Below, in pieces: positions 10,254-39,731 of a stretch of DNA of 47,343 nt. Within the stretch, counting starts at the first letter, position 1; every line of letters begins with the position of its first letter. Under the pieces are notes generated by a model. The model saw only the letters and a list, made by a program, of their open reading frames with translations. It was not told the DNA's origin and searched no databases. A program made the position numbers and the translations under genes. The DNA comes from an uncultured Mycoplasma sp. (GTDB lineage: Bacteria; Bacillota_I; Bacilli_A; Mycoplasmatales; Metamycoplasmataceae). The DNA lies in contig CAMRAC010000004.1 in assembly GCA_947039955.1 (NCBI GenBank), positions 1 through 47,343 on the forward strand, written 5' to 3'.

Positions 10254-12257
<2,004 letters not shown>

Positions 12258-16169: not shown

Positions 16170-16682
16170 ATGGAAGATAAAGCAAAAGAAGAATTAGAAG
16201 TTAACAAAGAAGTTAAAAAACAAGAAAAAGAATTAGAAGTTAAAAAACCTGAAAAAGAATTAGAAGTTAAAAAACCTGAAAAAGAATTAGAAGTTAAAAA
16301 ACCTGAAAAAGAATTAGAAGTTAAAAAACAAGAAAAAGAATTAGAAGTTAAAAAAGAAGTAAAAACTGAAGAAAAAAATTTAGATAATACAAATCTTATA
16401 TCACCTAAAAAACAATACAAAAGATTGGGATCAGAAAATAAAAAGATCGCAAAGTTATTAAAGAAAATATTAAAACACATCAAGTATTTAGATAAAGAAA
16501 TTGTTTATTTCAAGAAGTTTGAGAAAAAGAATCCAAATTTAGGTGAAACACTAGATTTGCTTATGACCAATTTTACAGATACTCTTGTAAATTTAAAAAA
16601 TGAACGTGATTTGATGGAACAAAAACATTTAGATAACAAAATTTCAATAGATAAACTAAAAGACGAAGCTCAAAAACAATAA
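16170..16682 (+). CDS. Coiled-coil protein with tandem nine-residue repeats
   Basis: A 170-aa, highly charged, soluble protein with no membrane segment. Residues about 8-65 are a tandem nonapeptide repeat of the form E-L-E-V-K-K-P/Q-E-K. The rest (from SENKKIAKLLKK to the C-terminus) is a predicted long helix with spaced Leu/Ile. No known family is recognised; the layout suggests a structural or scaffolding coiled-coil protein. The start has only a weak Shine-Dalgarno sequence (GAAAGACGG). The stop abuts the convergent tyrS stop with no spacer. The repeat DNA is near-identical, so copy number may vary between strains. Confidence 0.8.
   Translation: MEDKAKEELEVNKEVKKQEKELEVKKPEKELEVKKPEKELEVKKPEKELEVKKQEKELEVKKEVKTEEKNLDNTNLISPKKQYKRLGSENKKIAKLLKKILKHIKYLDKEIVYFKKFEKKNPNLGETLDLLMTNFTDTLVNLKNERDLMEQKHLDNKISIDKLKDEAQKQ
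16191..16364 (+). repeat. 27-bp tandem repeats inside the coiled-coil gene
   Basis: Five copies start at 16230, 16257, 16284, 16311 and 16338 at an exact 27-base period. A longer 39-base variant starts at 16191. The three middle units are identical and carry CCT (Pro); the fourth has CAA (Gln). The unit length is a multiple of three, so gain or loss keeps the frame. Confidence 0.95.
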
Positions 16683-17950: not shown

Positions 17951-18532
17951 TTAAAATGTATATTCTTCTAGTTTATTTTTATTATCAATCTTAATAATTC
18001 CTTCTTTAACAATTCCTAATGACTTATAAGAACAAATCATACCTTTAGATTCACTTCCCATTACTTTAGATTCAGTTATAACCATCCCTGTTGCTAAAAA
18101 GGCTTTATTTGTAGCAAATAGGTGATAATCTCCAGGTTTTAAGTTATCAAGGTTTGTAACTATAGGTAAAGTTTCGTTATTTATTTTTACTGAAAGAATT
18201 TTAAGTTTTTCACTTTTTGGGTGGTTTTCAATATTTTCTATTAATCCTGTCTTAAAAAATGAATTATTTTTTACATTTTTCATTTCTGTTGGAAATTTTT
18301 TAGATATTTTGTTGAAATTTAGGTCTGAAAAGCTATGATAGCCCTCTGATATATCCTTAAAATCTTCTTTATAATTGAAAATATTTATCCCAACTAGTTC
18401 GTTATTTCCATAAATAAAAACATAATTTTCTTTAGTTATTGATTCGATTTCTCCCGAAAATGCACTAAAAATTATAATTAAATTTTGCTTATTTTCGAAA
18501 ATTTCATTGCTTGTAGTTATTGAAATAGACAT
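17951..18532 (-). CDS. YtpR-type protein with EMAP-II-like tRNA-binding domain
   Basis: A 193-aa protein. The C-terminal ~100 residues form an OB-fold tRNA-binding domain, shown by [21 protein letters not shown] and the family tail motif [17 protein letters not shown]. The same domain occurs at the N-terminus of PheRS beta, the C-terminus of MetRS and in free-standing YtpR. The N-terminal 90 residues are the YtpR-like extension. Location just upstream of tyrS fits a role in tRNA handling, but biochemical function is not established from sequence. TATAAT lies 7 bases before the ATG, and no Shine-Dalgarno sequence is seen. Confidence 0.88.
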
Positions 18533-20156: not shown

Positions 20157-20402
20157 TTAATTTATAAAGTGTATTTTTGATATTGAATCAGATTTGTCTT
20201 GGTGTGTTTCTCATTTAGTAACTGTTCCGTCTTTGCCCTTAACTTCTCCTTTGTCACTAAACAATAATTTAAATGATGAAACTAAAGAAGTCACTGCCGG
20301 AATAATTATTGGTAAAAGAGATCCGAGAATTGCTATAGCACTTCCTCCATAGATTTGTGATGATTGATTATCTGTCATTTTTGTAAATCCTTTTGTGGTC
20401 AT
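20157..20402 (-). CDS. Double-glycine-leader peptide, bacteriocin/pheromone-like
   Basis: An 81-aa protein; one TGA must be read as Trp to reach the stop at 20157. The first 20 residues look like a class II bacteriocin or ComC-type leader: a hydrophobic residue, then FTKMTDNQSSQIYGG, matching the F-x-x-hydrophobic-(T/S)-x-x-x-L-x-x-I-x-GG pattern with Gly19-Gly20 as cleavage site. The predicted mature peptide (61 aa) has a hydrophobic helix (IAILGSLLPIIIPAVTSLV) and a polar, charged tail. An AAAGGAGGT Shine-Dalgarno sequence four bases before ATG 20402 decides the start; a TTG at 20417 lies upstream of that site. No C39-peptidase exporter or immunity gene is in this window. A membrane peptide of another kind with a chance GG is the main alternative. 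Confidence 0.7.
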
Positions 20403-20405
20403 ATT

Positions 20406-20442
20406 ACCTCCTTTCAAACTTATATTCCTAAAAGGTGGAGGT
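20406..20442 (-). promoter_or_regulatory. Possible Shine-Dalgarno-sequestering hairpin
   Basis: ACCTCC in the 5' leader (20442-20437) is complementary to GGAGGT of the Shine-Dalgarno sequence (20411-20406), with a 25-base loop. CCTTT next to it could alternatively pair with AAAGG. Pairing would hide the ribosome-binding site of the double-glycine peptide. Confidence 0.4.
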
Positions 20443-20560: not shown

Positions 20561-21487
20561 ATGTATTTTATTTATGGTGAAGAATTATTTTTAATTGATA
20601 AACAAATTAAAAAAATAATAAAACAAAACGCTGATGCAAAATCAATTTTTTTTGATGCTAATTCTACTATATATGAAGCTATAAATGAAATCAATACATT
20701 CTCAATCTTTGATCATAAAAAAATCCTTATCTTTAAAGATTTTTACTTATTAACTAAGTCTAATGCCGCTCATGATAACGAAATTATTAACTCTATTAAA
20801 AACATGAATGAAAACATTATCTTGATCTTCACTTATTCAGATGCAAAACCAAAAGCACAAACACCTTTGTTTAAATATTTACTAAAAGAAATGCAAGCAA
20901 TTGAAGTTAAGAAATATACACAAATGCAATTGGCAACCATTATTAGAGAAATTGTTATTTCTAAAAGTGGATCAATTTCAAACATTAATTCAATTCTTCT
21001 TTCAACTAAATTACCTAATGATTTAAACCTAATCATTAGAGAAATTGACAAGCTGCTAATGGAAGACAAAGAAATAACAAAAGAAATGATATATGACTCT
21101 GTTTCAAAATATAACTCTAATAATATCTTTGAATTTATTAATTCATTTCAAGAGGGTGATGTTTCAGGTCTTTTCAGAAGTTATAAAGAAAGAGTGGATA
21201 ATGGTGAATCTATCATCAACCTAATGTCACAACTTTCTAATAGTCTAATACTTTGTAGCACAATACATTCTTATAAAGCTTCAAGAATGAGAATTGAAGA
21301 AATTGCAGAGGAAATGAAGATTCATATCTTTAGAATTAAAAAAGCCAATACATTATTGAAAACATTAACCTTCAAAAGAGTTGAAATATTAATTGAAATG
21401 TTGTCAGAATTAGATACAAAAATTAAAAGTGGAGAAATCAATGAAGTCATTGGTTTTGAAAAACTTCTTTTGGAAATAGTGCGTTAA
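20561..21487 (+). CDS. holA: DNA polymerase III delta subunit
   Basis: Clamp-loader subunit that opens the beta clamp. The 308-aa protein begins MYFIYGEELFLIDKQIKKI, the typical HolA start. It has ATPase-like fold segments (ILIFKDFYLL; NENIILIFTYSDAKPK), a helical lid (LIIREIDKLLM) and the C-terminal collar helices (FEFINSFQEGD; GFEKLLLEIV). No P-loop is present, as expected for delta. It lies divergently from the small peptide gene and has its own TATAAT at 20548. The GH13-like gene starts 17 bases after its stop with its own promoter. Confidence 0.92.
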   Translation: MYFIYGEELFLIDKQIKKIIKQNADAKSIFFDANSTIYEAINEINTFSIFDHKKILIFKDFYLLTKSNAAHDNEIINSIKNMNENIILIFTYSDAKPKAQTPLFKYLLKEMQAIEVKKYTQMQLATIIREIVISKSGSISNINSILLSTKLPNDLNLIIREIDKLLMEDKEITKEMIYDSVSKYNSNNIFEFINSFQEGDVSGLFRSYKERVDNGESIINLMSQLSNSLILCSTIHSYKASRMRIEEIAEEMKIHIFRIKKANTLLKTLTFKRVEILIEMLSELDTKIKSGEINEVIGFEKLLLEIVR

Positions 21488-21492
21488 TTTTG

Positions 21493-21498
21493 TATAAT
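21493..21498 (+). promoter_or_regulatory. -10 box of the GH13-like gene (leaderless type)
   Basis: TATAAT in the 17-base gap after holA, ending 6 bases before the ATG. Confidence 0.6.
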
Positions 21499-21504
21499 TT
21501 TTAA

Positions 21505-23046
21505 ATGTTAAAGAATCATAATACTAAGAGAATATTTTATGAGTTAAATCCATTATTTTTTTATGATCATAATGGTGATGGTTTTGGTGACTTTGATGGA
21601 ATTTCGGAAAAAATTAACTACTTTTCTTTTATGGGAGTTGACTGTGTAATCATTCCTGATATATTCAATAATTACAACTCATTACTTTTCAGTTCGTTTA
21701 TAAATTTAAAGAACAAATACGGAAATACAGAAGCATTAAAAAAAATGATTGATAAATTTAAAGAAAAGAAAATTGATTTTGCAGTTGAGATAAATATTAA
21801 AGATATTAAAAAATCAATGTTATTTTCAGCTGACGGAACAATTAATCATGGTGAATTACAAGAATCATCTAAAGCCTTCTTTCTAGACAAAAATCAATCA
21901 GAGAATCAATCAGAAAACTTTAACTCTCGTGCTACCTTAGAAGCCTTTACTAAGATTATTAAATTCTGAACATCTTTCGATGTTACTAATTTTGTTTTTG
22001 TAAACTTTGAAAACTTATTTAATAAAAATGAAGTTTTTAGTAATCTGACAATGGAACAACTACAACAACTTTATAAGATTGCAAAAGATATTGATTCAAC
22101 AATTACAATCATTGTAAAATCAGCGGGATTAGCACAAATAAATATCACTGAATGTTTAGATCCGAATAATCGTGCAGCGGATTTATTTATTGATACTTCA
22201 TATTCATTAATTGGAACACATCCAAAATATGCAAATGATAAGATTGATAAATTTAAACCTATTAAGTTGTTCAAAAAAATCAATCAAGTAGTGAAGTCAG
22301 AAAACGCAAAAGACAATATTGTTATGTCTCTAGGTTCTTCCCTTTCAGGAAGAATAAACTCTAGATGAGGAAACGAACAATCTTCAAATGCTTTAGCTGC
22401 TAAAGCATTGATGACAATATCACTTGCCTCTACTTCTTCGTCACTAATTTATTATGGTGATGAATTAGGAATGTTAAAAACTGATATTAAAGAAAACTTG
22501 CACTTCAATGATATTTATGCAATTGAAAGAAAGAGAAATATGCAATCTGAAGGACAAAATCAAAAAGACTTCTTCACTGCTCAACAATATTTATCACCAA
22601 TTAACACGCAATCATTATTCCAATGAGACAAAACTAAGAATGGTGGTTTTTCAAGTGGTGATGTAACAATTAGGCAAGTATCAAAAACATATAAAGAAAT
22701 AAATGTAGCCAATCAATATTACAATCATGATTCACCATTATATTACTTAAAGAAATTCATTGAATTTATTAAAAATCCAATTTATAGACATTTTTTCAAT
22801 AGCACTAAAACAAATATGACCGTTCACTTAATTTCAAAAAGTGTTATTAAGTACATTCTTCAATTTGGAGATGAAAAACTTTTTATTTTTATTAACATAA
22901 GTATAAATTGAAAAAGAATTAAAATTAGTGATAAATTAGGAGTTGTTTTAAGTAATTATTCAAAAAAAACTTATAATAATAAAATAAAGATGTTAGCCCC
23001 TTATGAAGCTGTCATTTTATTCTCAAAAAAGGAATATAATCAATAA
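21505..23046 (+). CDS. Catalytically dead alpha-amylase-family (GH13) protein
   Basis: A 513-aa homologue of oligo-1,6-glucosidase/trehalose-6-phosphate hydrolase. The N-terminal barrel strand and Ca-loop are conserved (FYDHNGDGFGDFDGISEKI), as is the late barrel motif SLIYYGDELGM. All three catalytic acids are replaced: the FR-x-D nucleophile motif reads FVFV (Val164, Val166); the Glu of the TVGE motif is Ser206 in IIVKSAG; the NHDQPRIVSR motif reads SSLSGRINSR (Leu280 for Asp, Ser279 for His). Flanking Arg/Gly positions stay aligned, so this is not a frameshift. The frame is intact with TGA as Trp. I infer a non-enzymatic role, for example sugar binding or regulation, or early decay. Confidence 0.85.
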
Positions 23047-29219: not shown

Positions 29220-32200
29220 ATGAAAAAATCAAACATATTAAAATCGGTTCTTGCCACGTCAGCAATGGTTGGTTTACCTTTAGTTATTGTGAATATTAAT
29301 TCACAAAATCAGACTAATATCAAAAATGCAAACTTCAAAAATAATAAACCAGAATTTAAAACTTTGAAAAATGCTGAGCAAATAATTGTTTCAAATCCTA
29401 ATATTATGAAGGACTCTAACTTTGCCCAAGTTAGAGATTTAATGGAATCAATTGTTATGACTCAAGAGATCTTAAATAAACTTGATATTGTAATGCCTAA
29501 CCAAAGTGACCCCGCTAAAGTTTCATTTACAAATATTAAAAATGAGTTATTTAAAATCTCATTTACCATCAACTATAATGGTTTCCCAAAAACAACATCT
29601 GATTTCTTAAATATAACACCAGAAAGCCAAGAAGTTGCTAACCACATTTATGTTGAGGATATTGATGCTTTAATTCACAATGAACCTATTGTTATTAAAA
29701 AGTTATTAGAAACTCCTATAATGACTCAAGCAATTTTAAATCAAGCAAAAATTATAATTCCTCGTGATGCAGAAGCTAGCAAAGTTTCTTTTTCAAAAAT
29801 TAATATTGACAACCCTTTAAGAGTTTCATTCCATATTAATTACAATGGTGTTGAAAAAATTGCTCCTGACTTCTTAAATGCAACAGCAACAGATTTGGAA
29901 GTTGCAACAGCAATCAAACTTCACAACCCTGATATTCTAAAATCATTAGATGTTATAAGCATTAGAAATATCTTAGAGCAAAGTCCGATGTCAATAGAAA
30001 TTTTGGAACAACTTTCAATTACTATTCCTGAAGGAACAAATGCAGCTTTAGTTTCATTTACAGAAGTTAATATTACCAATCCATTTATAATTACTTTTAA
30101 CATAAATTACAATGGAACACCAAAAACTTCATCTGATTTTCTAAATGCAACATTAACAGATAAACAAACAGCTGAAAAAACCATTATTCAAAATCCTAAT
30201 ATTTTAGGAAATCAAAACATAAATAACATTAAAGGTTTATTGGAAGCAAGTCCAATGACAAGAGAAATTTTGGAACAACTTTCTTTCAAAATCCCGCAAG
30301 GTGCAGAACCAAGTAAATATTTATTTACAGAGATAGATACTACTAACCCATTTAAAATTACATTCTTGCTTAAATACAACGGAGTTGCGAAATCATCTCC
30401 TGATTCATTAAACGCTAAACCAACAGACAAAGAAACTGTTGAGTCAATTGCTGTTCAAAATCCCGATATTTTGAAAAGTAAAAATGTGAGTTACATTAAA
30501 TCTTTACTAGACACACCTGTGATGACTAAAGAAGTTTTGGCTGAATTATCTATCTTTATACCTGAAGGTGGAGATATAAGTAAACTTTCATTTACAAACA
30601 TTGATATGTCAGGTTTGTATGGAGTTAGTTTTAGAATTAACTATAATAGAGTTTCTAAGGACGTTCTAGACTTTTTAAGTGCAACACCATCTGATAAAGA
30701 TGTTGCTGAAGCTACAACGCTTTCTAATCCAAATATCATTAAACAAGAAACTGTTAACTTTATCAAGAATATCCTTGAATCACCTACTATGACTCAAGAT
30801 ATCTTAACTCAATTATCAATTCAAATTCCTTTAGGTTCTACACCAGAGTTATTCTCTTTTACAAAAATTGATATTACAAACCCTTTCAAAATTAGTTTTG
30901 TTATTAATTACAACGGAGTTGCGAAAGATTCAATAGAGTTTTTAAATGCTACACCAACAGATGCAGAAATATCTAGAACAATTTTTATTAAAGATAATGG
31001 AATTATGAAAACTCAAAAAGTTCTTACAATTAGAGATATCTTAGAAACAAAAGTAATAACTACAGAAATCCTTAAGAGTCTTTCAATTACTCTTCCAGAC
31101 GGTGTCAATCCATCACTTGTAACATTTACAGATGTAAACGTTGATAATCCCCTAAGAGTTACTTTTATAATTAATTACAACAGAGTTCCTAAGGGTACTC
31201 CTGATTTCTTGCTTGCTCAAGCTAGTGAAGCGGAAATTGTTGATTCAATAACAATCGCTAATGTTGATTCGTTAAAAGAATTAAGTGGTATTAAAATTAG
31301 AAATTTACTAGAAGCTAGTCCAATGACTCAAGAGAACCTAGATAAATTAGGAATTACCTTCCCGGTGGGTGCAGATATTAGAAAACTTGCTTTCAACAAA
31401 ATTAATATTACAAATCTATTTAAAGTAACATTTACAATTAGTTATAACTCAGTTGTTAAAAAAACTTCAGACTTCTTAACATCAACACCAACTAATTTAG
31501 AAGTTGCTAATAAGATTCACATTAAAAATACAAATATCTTAAAATCACAAGACGCTCTTTTTATTAAAGGATTATTAGAAGGCCCTGTTACTTTGGACAG
31601 TTTAAATAAACTTTCAGTTCTTTTCCCAGAAGGAACAGATATTAGTCTAATTACATTTACCGAAATTAATATAACCAACCCTTTAAGAGTTACCTTTACA
31701 ATTAATTACAATGGTATAGCTAAATCATCACAAAACTTCCTAAACTCAACACCATCTGATTTAGACGTTGTTAATTCAATAATATTAACTGATTCAAATT
31801 CTGTATCAAATTTAGGTGTAGAAAGAATTAGATCTTTATTAGAAACAAAACCAATGAGTCAAGCTATTTTATCTAAACTTACAATTAAAGTTCCTGCAGG
31901 AACAGAAATTTTTAGAATTTCGTTTAATAATATTGTTATTACTAACTTGTTCAAAGTGACATTTACAATTACATATAACGGTATAGAAAAGTCAACCACT
32001 GATTTTTTAAACTCAACACCTCTTAACCAAGATATTGCCAACACTTCTCTCGTGAGTGATAGAAACATTTTAGTAAACAAAGATGTTTCATTCATTAAAC
32101 GTCTTTTAGATACAAAACCAATGAGTCTAGCTGTATTAAATCAACTTTCAATTACAATTCCAAGTGGTTCATCACCGGAATTAATTACATTTACAGATGT

Positions 32201-33659
32201 TAATATTACTAACCCTTTAAGAATTACGTTTGTAATTAACTATAACGGTATACCAAAAGAAACTCCTGATTACTTAAAAGCTTTAGCTACAGATTTAGAA
32301 GTTGTTAATGTTATTTTTGTAAAAGATAAAGATGCTGCAAGATTGGAAAATTCTAAGTTTGTTAAAGAATTATTAGATAAGAACCCAACAACTAAGGAAA
32401 TTCTAGCACAACTTTCAATCAATGTTCCTGAAGGTGCTGACATTTCTAAAATTTCATTTACTGATATAAATATTGAAAATCCTTTAAGAGTTATTTTCAC
32501 AATTTCTTATAACAATGTACCAAAGCCAACTCCTGATTTATTAAATGTAACTCCTGCTCAAGATATTGCAAATGCAATTATGGTTGAAAATGTTGATATT
32601 TTACAAACAGAAAATGCCCTTTACATCAAAGGTTTATTAGAAACAAATCCAATGAGTCAAAAAGTTTTAGATGAACTTTCAATTAAATTACCAAAAGGTG
32701 TAGATCCAGCAAGAATTACAATGACCAACATTGATACTAGCAACTTATTCAGAATTACATTCAAAATAAACTACAATGGTGTAGCAAGCGAAAGAGAAAC
32801 ATTCTTTAATACATCTCCAAAAGATAAAGATATTGCCAATGCAATTATTATTCAAGATTTTGACATCTTTAAAGATCAAGAACTTTTATTTGTTCAAACA
32901 TTACTAGAAACAAGTCCGATGACAACAGAGGTTTTAGAACAACTTTCAATTATTGTTCCAACTGGTATTGATGTTACTAAAATAACATTTACAGATATCG
33001 ATGTTTCAAATCTTGCATTAATTAGTTTCAAAGTTAATTATAATGGTGTTACAGGAGATAAAGCATTTTCATTTAACATTAGAGCTCCTTACTCAAGTAC
33101 TATATTAGTGGTTTCAACAGTTGTTCCAATTAGTATTATTCTTATAGTAGGTGCTTTGGCTACTGCGTTCATAATTAGAAAAAGAAATGGTGGAACATTT
33201 GAAAATGTATTCAGAAAAACTCCAAAAAATGATGAATCACAAGATCAACTTGATAACTCAGCTAAATCTATAAAACCAATTGAAAATAAAAACAAATATC
33301 AAGAATATACAAAAGAAAGTAACTTTGGATTCAATAATGACAATCAAGGTCAAGTATTATATCCAAATCAATCTCAAGATAATGGTCAATACACAAATGA
33401 TCAATATGATGAAAATGGACAATACCAAAATCAAGATGGATACTATGACAATCAAGATGGATACTATGATCAATATGATGAAAATGGTAACCAATGAAAT
33501 GACAATAAATGATATGGCGATAAATCAGAAACTGGTCAATGAGACAACGGTCAATGATTTGATAATGAAGGATATGACCAAAATGGTCAATATGTAGGAA
33601 ATGAACAAAAACCTAAAGAAGATGATTGAGATGACATGATCGAAATGATTAAAAAATAA
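29220..33659 (+). CDS. Giant repeat-type surface protein, single-pass membrane anchored
   Basis: A 1479-aa protein. Residues 1-~28 are a signal or anchor segment (SVLATSAMVGLPLVIVNI) without a lipobox Cys. From about residue 50 to 1285 there are 14 diverged copies of an ~89-residue module ending in F-x-I-N-Y-N-G-V. A membrane segment follows (TILVVSTVVPISIILIVGAL, about 1294-1318), then a basic stop-transfer and a ~160-residue tail rich in Gln, Asn, Asp, Tyr and Trp. Repeats lie outside and the tail in the cytoplasm by the positive-inside rule. The module arrangement resembles the large Mvsp-type surface proteins of mycoplasmas; exact function (adhesion, shielding, antigenic variation) is not shown. 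All five Trp (TGA) lie in the tail. Confidence 0.85.
29360..33080 (+). repeat. Fourteen ~267-bp coding repeats
   Basis: Each unit encodes a helix (FIKGLLE-x-x-PMTQEILxQLSI), an acidic Pro-Glu-Gly turn (IPEGxD), and a strand pair (SFTDINITNPLRVTFxINYNG). The 14 strand ends are variants of INYNG: six or more are INYNG exactly; others are ISYNS, ISYNN, INYNR, LKYNG, ITYNG. DNA identity between copies is only moderate, so recent expansion is not obvious. Confidence 0.85.
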
Positions 33660-38456: not shown

Positions 38457-39731
38457 ATGAATAAACTAAACGCAGTATTGGCAAGAAATATTGACGGTGT
38501 GTCAAACGGAGTTTGTGATTTTTCGCATACCGTTTCTTTTTCACACTACAATCACTTGTCTGCACAATTACCATTAAATCCATCAACTGGAAAACTAGTT
38601 GAGGGTGGAATTAAAGAACAAGCAATTCAATCTTTTAAAAATATTGAATCAATTATAAAAGGCATAAATCACGTTATGTCAGATATTGTAAGAATAACAA
38701 TTTTTACTAAAAAATTAGAGGATGTTGAAATAGTAAAAGATGTTTACAAAACATTCTTCACATCTTATCTACCAACAATGACCATATTAATTGTTGAAAA
38801 CTTACCAATGGGAGCTTTAGTGCAAATAGAAGCTGTCACAACTTATGGAGAAGGAACTATTCCTAACGCTCCACAAGCTGGAGACTTAATTAAAGTTGTT
38901 AAAAATACAGATCAAGCACCACTATGTAAATTAAAGTCACAATCCGTTGCTTTCTCTCATTACAACAATCTTTCAACCCAATTACCAATAGATCCAAAAA
39001 CTGGAAAATTAGTTACTGGTGGAATTAAAGAACAATTAAAACAATCTTTAATAAACATCAAAAGCATATTAACAAGTATTGATGTTCCGTTTGACGACAT
39101 TGTAAAAGTTAATATTTATGTTAAAGATTTAAATGATAAAGAAAAAATAAGAGACACTTATAAAACATTCTTTCCAGATTCAGCAATAGCTAGAACGGTT
39201 GGATATTTTCCAGCTTTATCAATTATTGAAGTAAAAGAAATAATGTTAAATGCTCTTGTTCAAGTTGAAGTGGTAGTATCCCATGGAGATGGAACACCTC
39301 CGCAAGAAATTGAAGATCGTCATGGAATAGTTATTAAAGCTAACAATACAGATAGAGCTCCTAGATGTTGTATCTCTACACAAACAGTAGCATTTTCACA
39401 TTACAACAACATATCAATGCAATTACCGATTGATCCAAAAACAAAAGAATTAGTTTCTGGAAATATAGAAAAACAAACACAACAATGTTTAGAGAATATT
39501 AAAAACATTTTGATGAGTGTAGATCATAAAATGGAAGATGTTGTTAAGTTAAATATCTTTACTAAAAATCTAAATGATATTGATTTAATTTCTAAGGTTA
39601 TTAAATCATTCTTCCCTAACATTGTGCCAGCAGGAAGAATTATTGAAGTTTCAAACATTGATAAAAATGCATTGGTTCAAATTGATGCAATTGTAGGAAA
39701 CGCAGAAGGAACACCTCCACAAAACAAATAA
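38457..39731 (+). CDS. Three-domain RidA (YjgF/UK114)-family protein
   Basis: One 424-aa chain of three consecutive RidA-like domains (about 1-142, 143-288, 289-424), each with the marks FSHYN(H/N)xS-x-QLP(L/I)-(N/D)P and LVQ(I/V)(E/D)A(I/V). RidA proteins are normally ~125-aa chains that assemble as homotrimers, so this chain could fold as one pseudo-trimer. The archetypal Arg of the P-A-R motif, needed for imine/enamine hydrolysis, is Met108, Leu254 and Gly393 in the three domains. Enamine deaminase activity is therefore unlikely and ligand binding is the more probable role. The start at 38457 follows AAGGA. No membrane segment. The next gene lies 41 bases downstream. Confidence 0.85.
   Translation: MNKLNAVLARNIDGVSNGVCDFSHTVSFSHYNHLSAQLPLNPSTGKLVEGGIKEQAIQSFKNIESIIKGINHVMSDIVRITIFTKKLEDVEIVKDVYKTFFTSYLPTMTILIVENLPMGALVQIEAVTTYGEGTIPNAPQAGDLIKVVKNTDQAPLCKLKSQSVAFSHYNNLSTQLPIDPKTGKLVTGGIKEQLKQSLINIKSILTSIDVPFDDIVKVNIYVKDLNDKEKIRDTYKTFFPDSAIARTVGYFPALSIIEVKEIMLNALVQVEVVVSHGDGTPPQEIEDRHGIVIKANNTDRAPRCCISTQTVAFSHYNNISMQLPIDPKTKELVSGNIEKQTQQCLENIKNILMSVDHKMEDVVKLNIFTKNLNDIDLISKVIKSFFPNIVPAGRIIEVSNIDKNALVQIDAIVGNAEGTPPQNK

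Follow-up and report, generated by a model that had tools for sequence, protein, structure and literature searches.

The gene considered here occupies positions 21505 to 23046 on the plus strand of the window, the whole stretch of 47,343 nucleotides that was analysed, which comes from a mollicute genome of 739 kb in 8 contigs read with translation table 4. ORF translation, Pfam and profile alignment characterize its product as a pseudo-GH13 protein of 513 aa and, as the preliminary description had claimed, the frame runs without interruption through its 513 codons, four of which are TGA, read as Trp in table 4. In the neighbour survey it is preceded by holA (20561..21487, +), encoding the DNA polymerase III delta subunit and being the family's commonest upstream neighbour, and followed by rplJ (L10; 23176..23673, +), the downstream neighbour in the window's genus and the M. 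marinum group, and by rplL (L7/L12; 23715..24080, +). The 17-base spacer behind holA (21488..21504, +), TTTTGTATAATTTTTAA, is shared with the six nearest relatives whose copy is complete, apart from one extra base in one of them. It carries TATAAT at 21493-21498, 12 nt before the ATG, and the hexamer lies at -12/-13 upstream of the start in six close species. A TATAAT so close to the start, without a Shine-Dalgarno motif, makes it likely that pseudo-GH13 is transcribed from a leaderless promoter. The same hexamer stands at -12 to -14 ahead of 10 of the 42 window genes, where a Shine-Dalgarno motif is absent, and leaderless transcripts are probably common in this genome; examples are 10254-12167 (-), 17951-18532 (-) and the starts at 20561, 21505, 27822 and 33703.

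Several other features of the window deserve mention. An 86-aa peptide at 20157-20417 (-), which has a Gly-Gly leader-like start (MTDNQSSQIYGGSAI...) and no Pfam match, is conserved at the same spot in the genus with 53-67% identity and looks bacteriocin-like. The 1479-aa product of 29220-33659 opens with a signal-like stretch, is rich in repeats and has a single membrane helix late in its sequence and an Asn/Gln/Tyr-rich tail; it is probably a repeat-built surface protein, and a relative of it is found downstream of rplL in L037. By eye, three internal copies resembling a RidA/YjgF-type domain can be discerned in the 424 aa encoded at 38457-39731, as well as a near-identical KPEKELEVK repeat run near the N-terminus of the protein encoded at 16170-16682.

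The preliminary description assigned the 513-aa protein a GH13 fold, and the comparisons made here agree. It matches the Pfam Alpha-amylase family (E 9.3e-28), and a full-length profile-profile alignment (hhalign) of pseudo-GH13 against 12 triad-keeping mycoplasma GH13 sequences gives E 1.5e-68. The best solved relatives of the window protein are B. subtilis MalL and other oligo-1,6-glucosidases. Its AlphaFold model (pLDDT 84, pTM 0.86) contains a complete TIM barrel, the (beta/alpha)8 barrel of the family, together with the C-terminal beta domain (domain C), and aligns in VIA-align with Z 40 to 5do8/4m56 (Listeria Lmo0184, B. subtilis MalL). The fold is thus a complete GH13 of the oligo-1,6-glucosidase/TreA type, minus the catalytic triad. 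The motifs earlier described as intact are indeed present, namely the Ca-loop NGDGFGDF (residues 23-30; 21571..21594, +) and IYYGDELGM (residues 315-323), whose YYGDELG core (residues 316-322; 22450..22470, +) includes a Glu320 retained in 53 of 53 relatives. Domain B is mostly deleted, and its remnant at approximately residues 98-140 (21796..21924, +), delimited from the alignments and the model, carries the model's longest low-confidence stretch. The N-terminus, MLKNHNTKRIFYELNP, leads directly into barrel strand 1 (residues 10-13). Neither a signal or anchor segment, judged from the sequence by eye and from the model, nor a hydrophobic segment or transmembrane helix ahead of the GH13 domain, judged from the N-terminus by eye, was seen. 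The suggestion that this might be a surface protein hence finds no support, and a cytosolic location is the best reading.

The catalytic residues present a different picture. MAFFT and profile-profile alignments independently place Val166 (22000..22002, +) at the position of the nucleophile Asp, Lys205 (22117..22119, +) at that of the acid/base Glu and Leu280 (22342..22344, +) at that of the stabilising Asp, so that the Asp/Glu/Asp triad of strands 4, 5 and 7 is replaced by V166/K205/L280. Val166 and Leu280 had been recognized before, whereas the acid/base position had been read one residue off, as Ser206. The reported losses of the FRxD Arg (V164) and the NHD His (S279) hold in the alignments, and with D100 at the beta-3 His the -1 subsite His/Arg/His becomes D100/V164/S279. 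The register is secure, since the nucleophile and acid/base positions mark the ends of two predicted strands, 162-166 and 201-206, and the quality of the model and its close match to Lmo0184 and MalL indicate that the loss of the triad is not an alignment artefact. Judged from its sequence, the window protein should be incapable of classical GH13 catalysis.

One could nevertheless imagine catalysis by residues that are new or have moved elsewhere, as the clade has acidic and basic residues of its own (E169, E/D in 43 of 53; K205, K/R in 36 of 53; D226, in 52 of 53) and GH13_45 BmaN1 has been reported to be active despite an aberrant triad (PMC11239784). This possibility is quite unlikely. No gap interrupts the profile alignment with triad-keeping mycoplasma GH13 proteins at any of the three sites, and no acid turns up at a shifted position; conservation is lower at the candidate pocket residues than in the scaffold; and D226, just ahead of predicted strand 6, would lie at the opposite end of the barrel from the old site.

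A search of 135 species of the family was carried out, with matches sorted by the state of their triad and 53 alignable full-length relatives used for counts. Typed in this way, pseudo-GH13 occurs in 55 of the 135 species and in 11 of 14 genera. Its carriers comprise 11 of the 12 members of the window's genus, all 24 members of genus g13 (where one copy is broken), and species in the groups of M. marinum/todarodis and of Ca. M. mahonii, among others. Named relatives with the gene are M. gypis, M. zalophi, M. anseris, M. spumans, M. auris, M. orale and M. enhydrae, and the carrier genome G083 is apparently M. hominis. Among the 53 relatives, 38 have none of the triad acids, nine keep the nucleophile Asp only and six the Glu only, so that no relative retains two or more; all nine Asp keepers belong to genus g13 and always lack the other two acids, and the stabilising Asp is kept in none. 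Some relatives in other genera (L040, L041, L043, L048, L168) bear long Lys/Glu-rich C-terminal extensions; L043, L048 and L168 end in related motifs (TEDDIAxTTQI / SEEEIAATIEM) that may serve as a docking peptide.

Two trees, of 75 and 39 proteins, unite the pseudo-GH13 sequences in one clade (bootstrap/SH-aLRT 100/100), sister to triad-bearing mycoplasma TreA/MalL-like proteins. The clade sits on a long stem (1.2-1.4 changes per column), which makes some long-branch effect possible; the position behind holA and the common motifs, NF[ED] and the K/R at the acid/base site, also point to one origin. In an order-wide sample of 248 genomes, matches from beyond the family either have TGA counts that indicate many Trp or are fragmentary; judged in bulk on this basis, they look like the active type. 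A single loss of catalysis, long ago and within the mycoplasmas, is the best reading of these patterns.

Could the gene simply be decaying while still unbroken? No recognisable pseudo-GH13 was found in genera g3, g5 and g6 in the family search of 135 species, where ten holA loci were inspected for remnants. Some lineages can thus do without the gene, and such losses are what decay would produce. A 437-aa ORF right behind holA in G013 (L197:2946-4256), without a Pfam match, shows a weak match to the pseudo-GH13 profile (hhalign E 6e-5, probability 65%) and may be a far-diverged member; barely recognisable as it is, it can be read in the same direction. However, 53 long frames are intact, the promoter-like stretch is conserved, and dN/dS, calculated by the Nei-Gojobori method with table 4 for nine pairs (dS being unsaturated in several), is 0.03-0.22, far below 1, indicating purifying selection and comparable to that of holA in the same genus (0.086-0.104). 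The single broken copy, in G093, was set aside as evidence of decay, since holA is split in the same genome and a neighbouring gene is truncated, a pattern that points to sequence errors. Decay is already contradicted by these data, and we give it hardly any credence.

Selection has acted very unevenly along the protein. When residues invariant in 14 triad-bearing sequences are scored in the 53 pseudo-GH13 relatives, the scaffold residues Y12, F19, G28, G32, Y39, E320, W374, S410 and N464 are kept in 50-53 of 53. Residues of the pocket (in the numbering of the active proteins) have almost vanished: H103, D322 and Y63 are kept in none, R196 and H321 in one each, E245 in six and D198 in nine, and D60, R409, D410 and R413 are lost or variable. 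Within the pseudo clade the scaffold columns rank in the 91st-99th percentile of conservation, the stabiliser in the 13th, the nucleophile in the 19th, and the columns of H103 and H321 in the 38th and 32nd, respectively. The mean number of Trp per protein falls from 16.5 in triad-bearing sequences to 5.2. Exceptions among the pocket columns are R283, V164 and the K205/S206 pair, which are moderately or well conserved. The shell, as far as conservation reveals, is under selection and the old pocket mostly is not, although the semi-conserved K/R at the acid/base position and the clade-specific Asn-Phe-Glu after the lost nucleophile (residues 167-169; 22003..22011, +) leave some room for a pocket-based function.

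One function of this kind, the sugar sensor already suggested in the preliminary description, would be a non-catalytic sensor or lectin in which a sugar or sugar phosphate is still bound in the old pocket. The fold is intact, Arg is present at the pocket-edge R283 (active R325) in 47 of 53 relatives, and a phosphate might be bound by the K/R that replaces the acid/base Glu. Against this stand the loss or variability of nine residues of the pocket (D60, Y63, H103, R196, H321, D322, R409, D410 and R413), the depletion of Trp, the near absence of domain B, the pocket roof, and the retention of the gene in what is apparently M. hominis, a non-glycolytic species with a genome of 665,445 bp in strain PG21 (PMC2751442). 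The sensor is thus weakened, and we regard it as unlikely.

The genomic setting bears on another option. Pseudoenzymes often regulate active relatives, and some carriers do hold GH13 genes with an intact triad, so that pseudo-GH13 might be a regulatory subunit of an active paralogue. In the window genome, with all 8 contigs included, the second, active GH13 copy that had been proposed as something to look for was not found, leaving pseudo-GH13 as its sole GH13, and none was found in any of the 24 genomes of genus g13; altogether about two thirds of the carriers, apparently M. hominis among them, have no other clear GH13. The absence of an active GH13 rules the role out for most carriers. The distribution thus largely refutes this explanation, which is very improbable, and, together with the apparent retention in non-glycolytic M. 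hominis, speaks against sugar sensing as well.

The usual place of the gene in the family is directly after holA and/or beside rplJ-rplL or pgsA. The order holA - pseudoGH13 - rplJ - rplL prevails in most of the window's genus, and holA is directly upstream in five genera (the window's genus, g13, g2, g4 and g12). In four others (g7, g8, g10 and g14) a small membrane protein and pgsA lie upstream, with rplJ-rplL downstream retained in g14, while in g13 the membrane protein and pgsA are often found downstream. Within the window's genus, a further subclade (L042, L044-L046) no longer has these neighbours. In one g6 genome rplJ-rplL come immediately after holA, the arrangement that a deletion of pseudo-GH13 from the window's gene order would leave. 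A functional link with the small membrane protein by pgsA was considered and rejected, for the latter is present in 131 of 135 family genomes, including genera without pseudo-GH13. Since the neighbours vary and have housekeeping functions, and since the membrane protein is found throughout the family, the context names no partner, and the arrangement reflects an old gene order.

With catalysis, regulation of a paralogue and sugar sensing excluded or weakened, a non-catalytic binding or scaffold role is favoured. We consider it probable that pseudo-GH13 is a cytosolic pseudo-glycosidase which, after one ancient loss of catalysis, now serves as a binding or scaffold protein. In an ancestor of the family, a GH13 gene of the oligo-1,6-glucosidase/TreA type was stripped a single time of its triad, its -1 subsite and the greater part of domain B. 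Purifying selection has preserved the gene since then, for the most part at its original site (holA - pseudoGH13 - rplJ/rplL or pgsA). Because the pocket drifts while the shell is frozen, barrel and domain C would now act through the surface of the protein and not through sugar chemistry. Clade-specific residues, N167-F168-E169, Y190, K194, D226, G282-R283, S312 and E341-K343-R344, may mark this new surface. More tentatively, and with considerable reserve, the glycosidase shell might have become a family-specific component of the mycoplasma cell, e.g., a partner of the replication clamp loader, or of ribosome or membrane assembly, with its new surface away from the old active site. The earlier proposal that the protein is maintained as a non-enzyme is strongly supported by the single clade of 53 relatives under purifying selection, by the lack of recovered acids and by the lack of a paralogue.

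Bacteria with reduced genomes should discard genes that they do not need, and yet a 1.5-kb dead enzyme is kept in 11 genera, apparently including M. hominis with its 665 kb and incomplete glycolysis. The Pfam match makes annotation as an alpha-amylase or similar likely, which would mislead metabolic models. Pseudo-GH13 is a clean and deep case of the conversion of an enzyme into a non-enzyme in bacteria, and its carriers include cultivable species. No description of the mycoplasma clade was found in the open-licence PMC literature, and the main text of the M. hominis literature, in the portion consulted, does not mention an amylase.

Among known systems, the closest are the MalL/TreA-type proteins (oligo-1,6-glucosidase/alpha,alpha-phosphotrehalase; GH13_29/31 type), the sister clade on the tree, which have in common with pseudo-GH13 the full-length fold, Ca-loop, YYGxExG, SRWGNE and domain C; unlike them, pseudo-GH13 lacks the triad, the -1 subsite residues and most of domain B, and has few Trp. 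GH13 also includes non-enzymatic members, the heavy chains of amino acid transporters (PMC11239784), to which the protein had been compared from the outset. The comparison is apt, as an analogy only, for 4F2hc (SLC3A2), whose ectodomain combines the GH13 barrel and domain C with catalytic residues that are not conserved and an absent domain B (PMC8537225). 4F2hc is, however, extracellular, binds a transporter and has a single transmembrane helix before the domain, whereas pseudo-GH13 shows no anchor by eye and its loss of catalysis occurred within the mycoplasmas. The likeness to rBAT (SLC3A1) is confined to its being a GH13-derived heavy chain, because rBAT has kept both triad and domain B (PMC8537225). 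In bacteria, GH13 proteins missing catalytic residues are mentioned in passing, such as GH13_48 proteins without one or more of them and the GH13_45 member BmaN1 (PMC11239784). These have altered triads like pseudo-GH13 but are not described as a deep, vertically kept clade (PMC11239784), and BmaN1, unlike the role proposed for pseudo-GH13, is still active. GH13 pseudoenzymes are therefore already known, and what is unusual here is the depth of the clade and its retention in minimal genomes.
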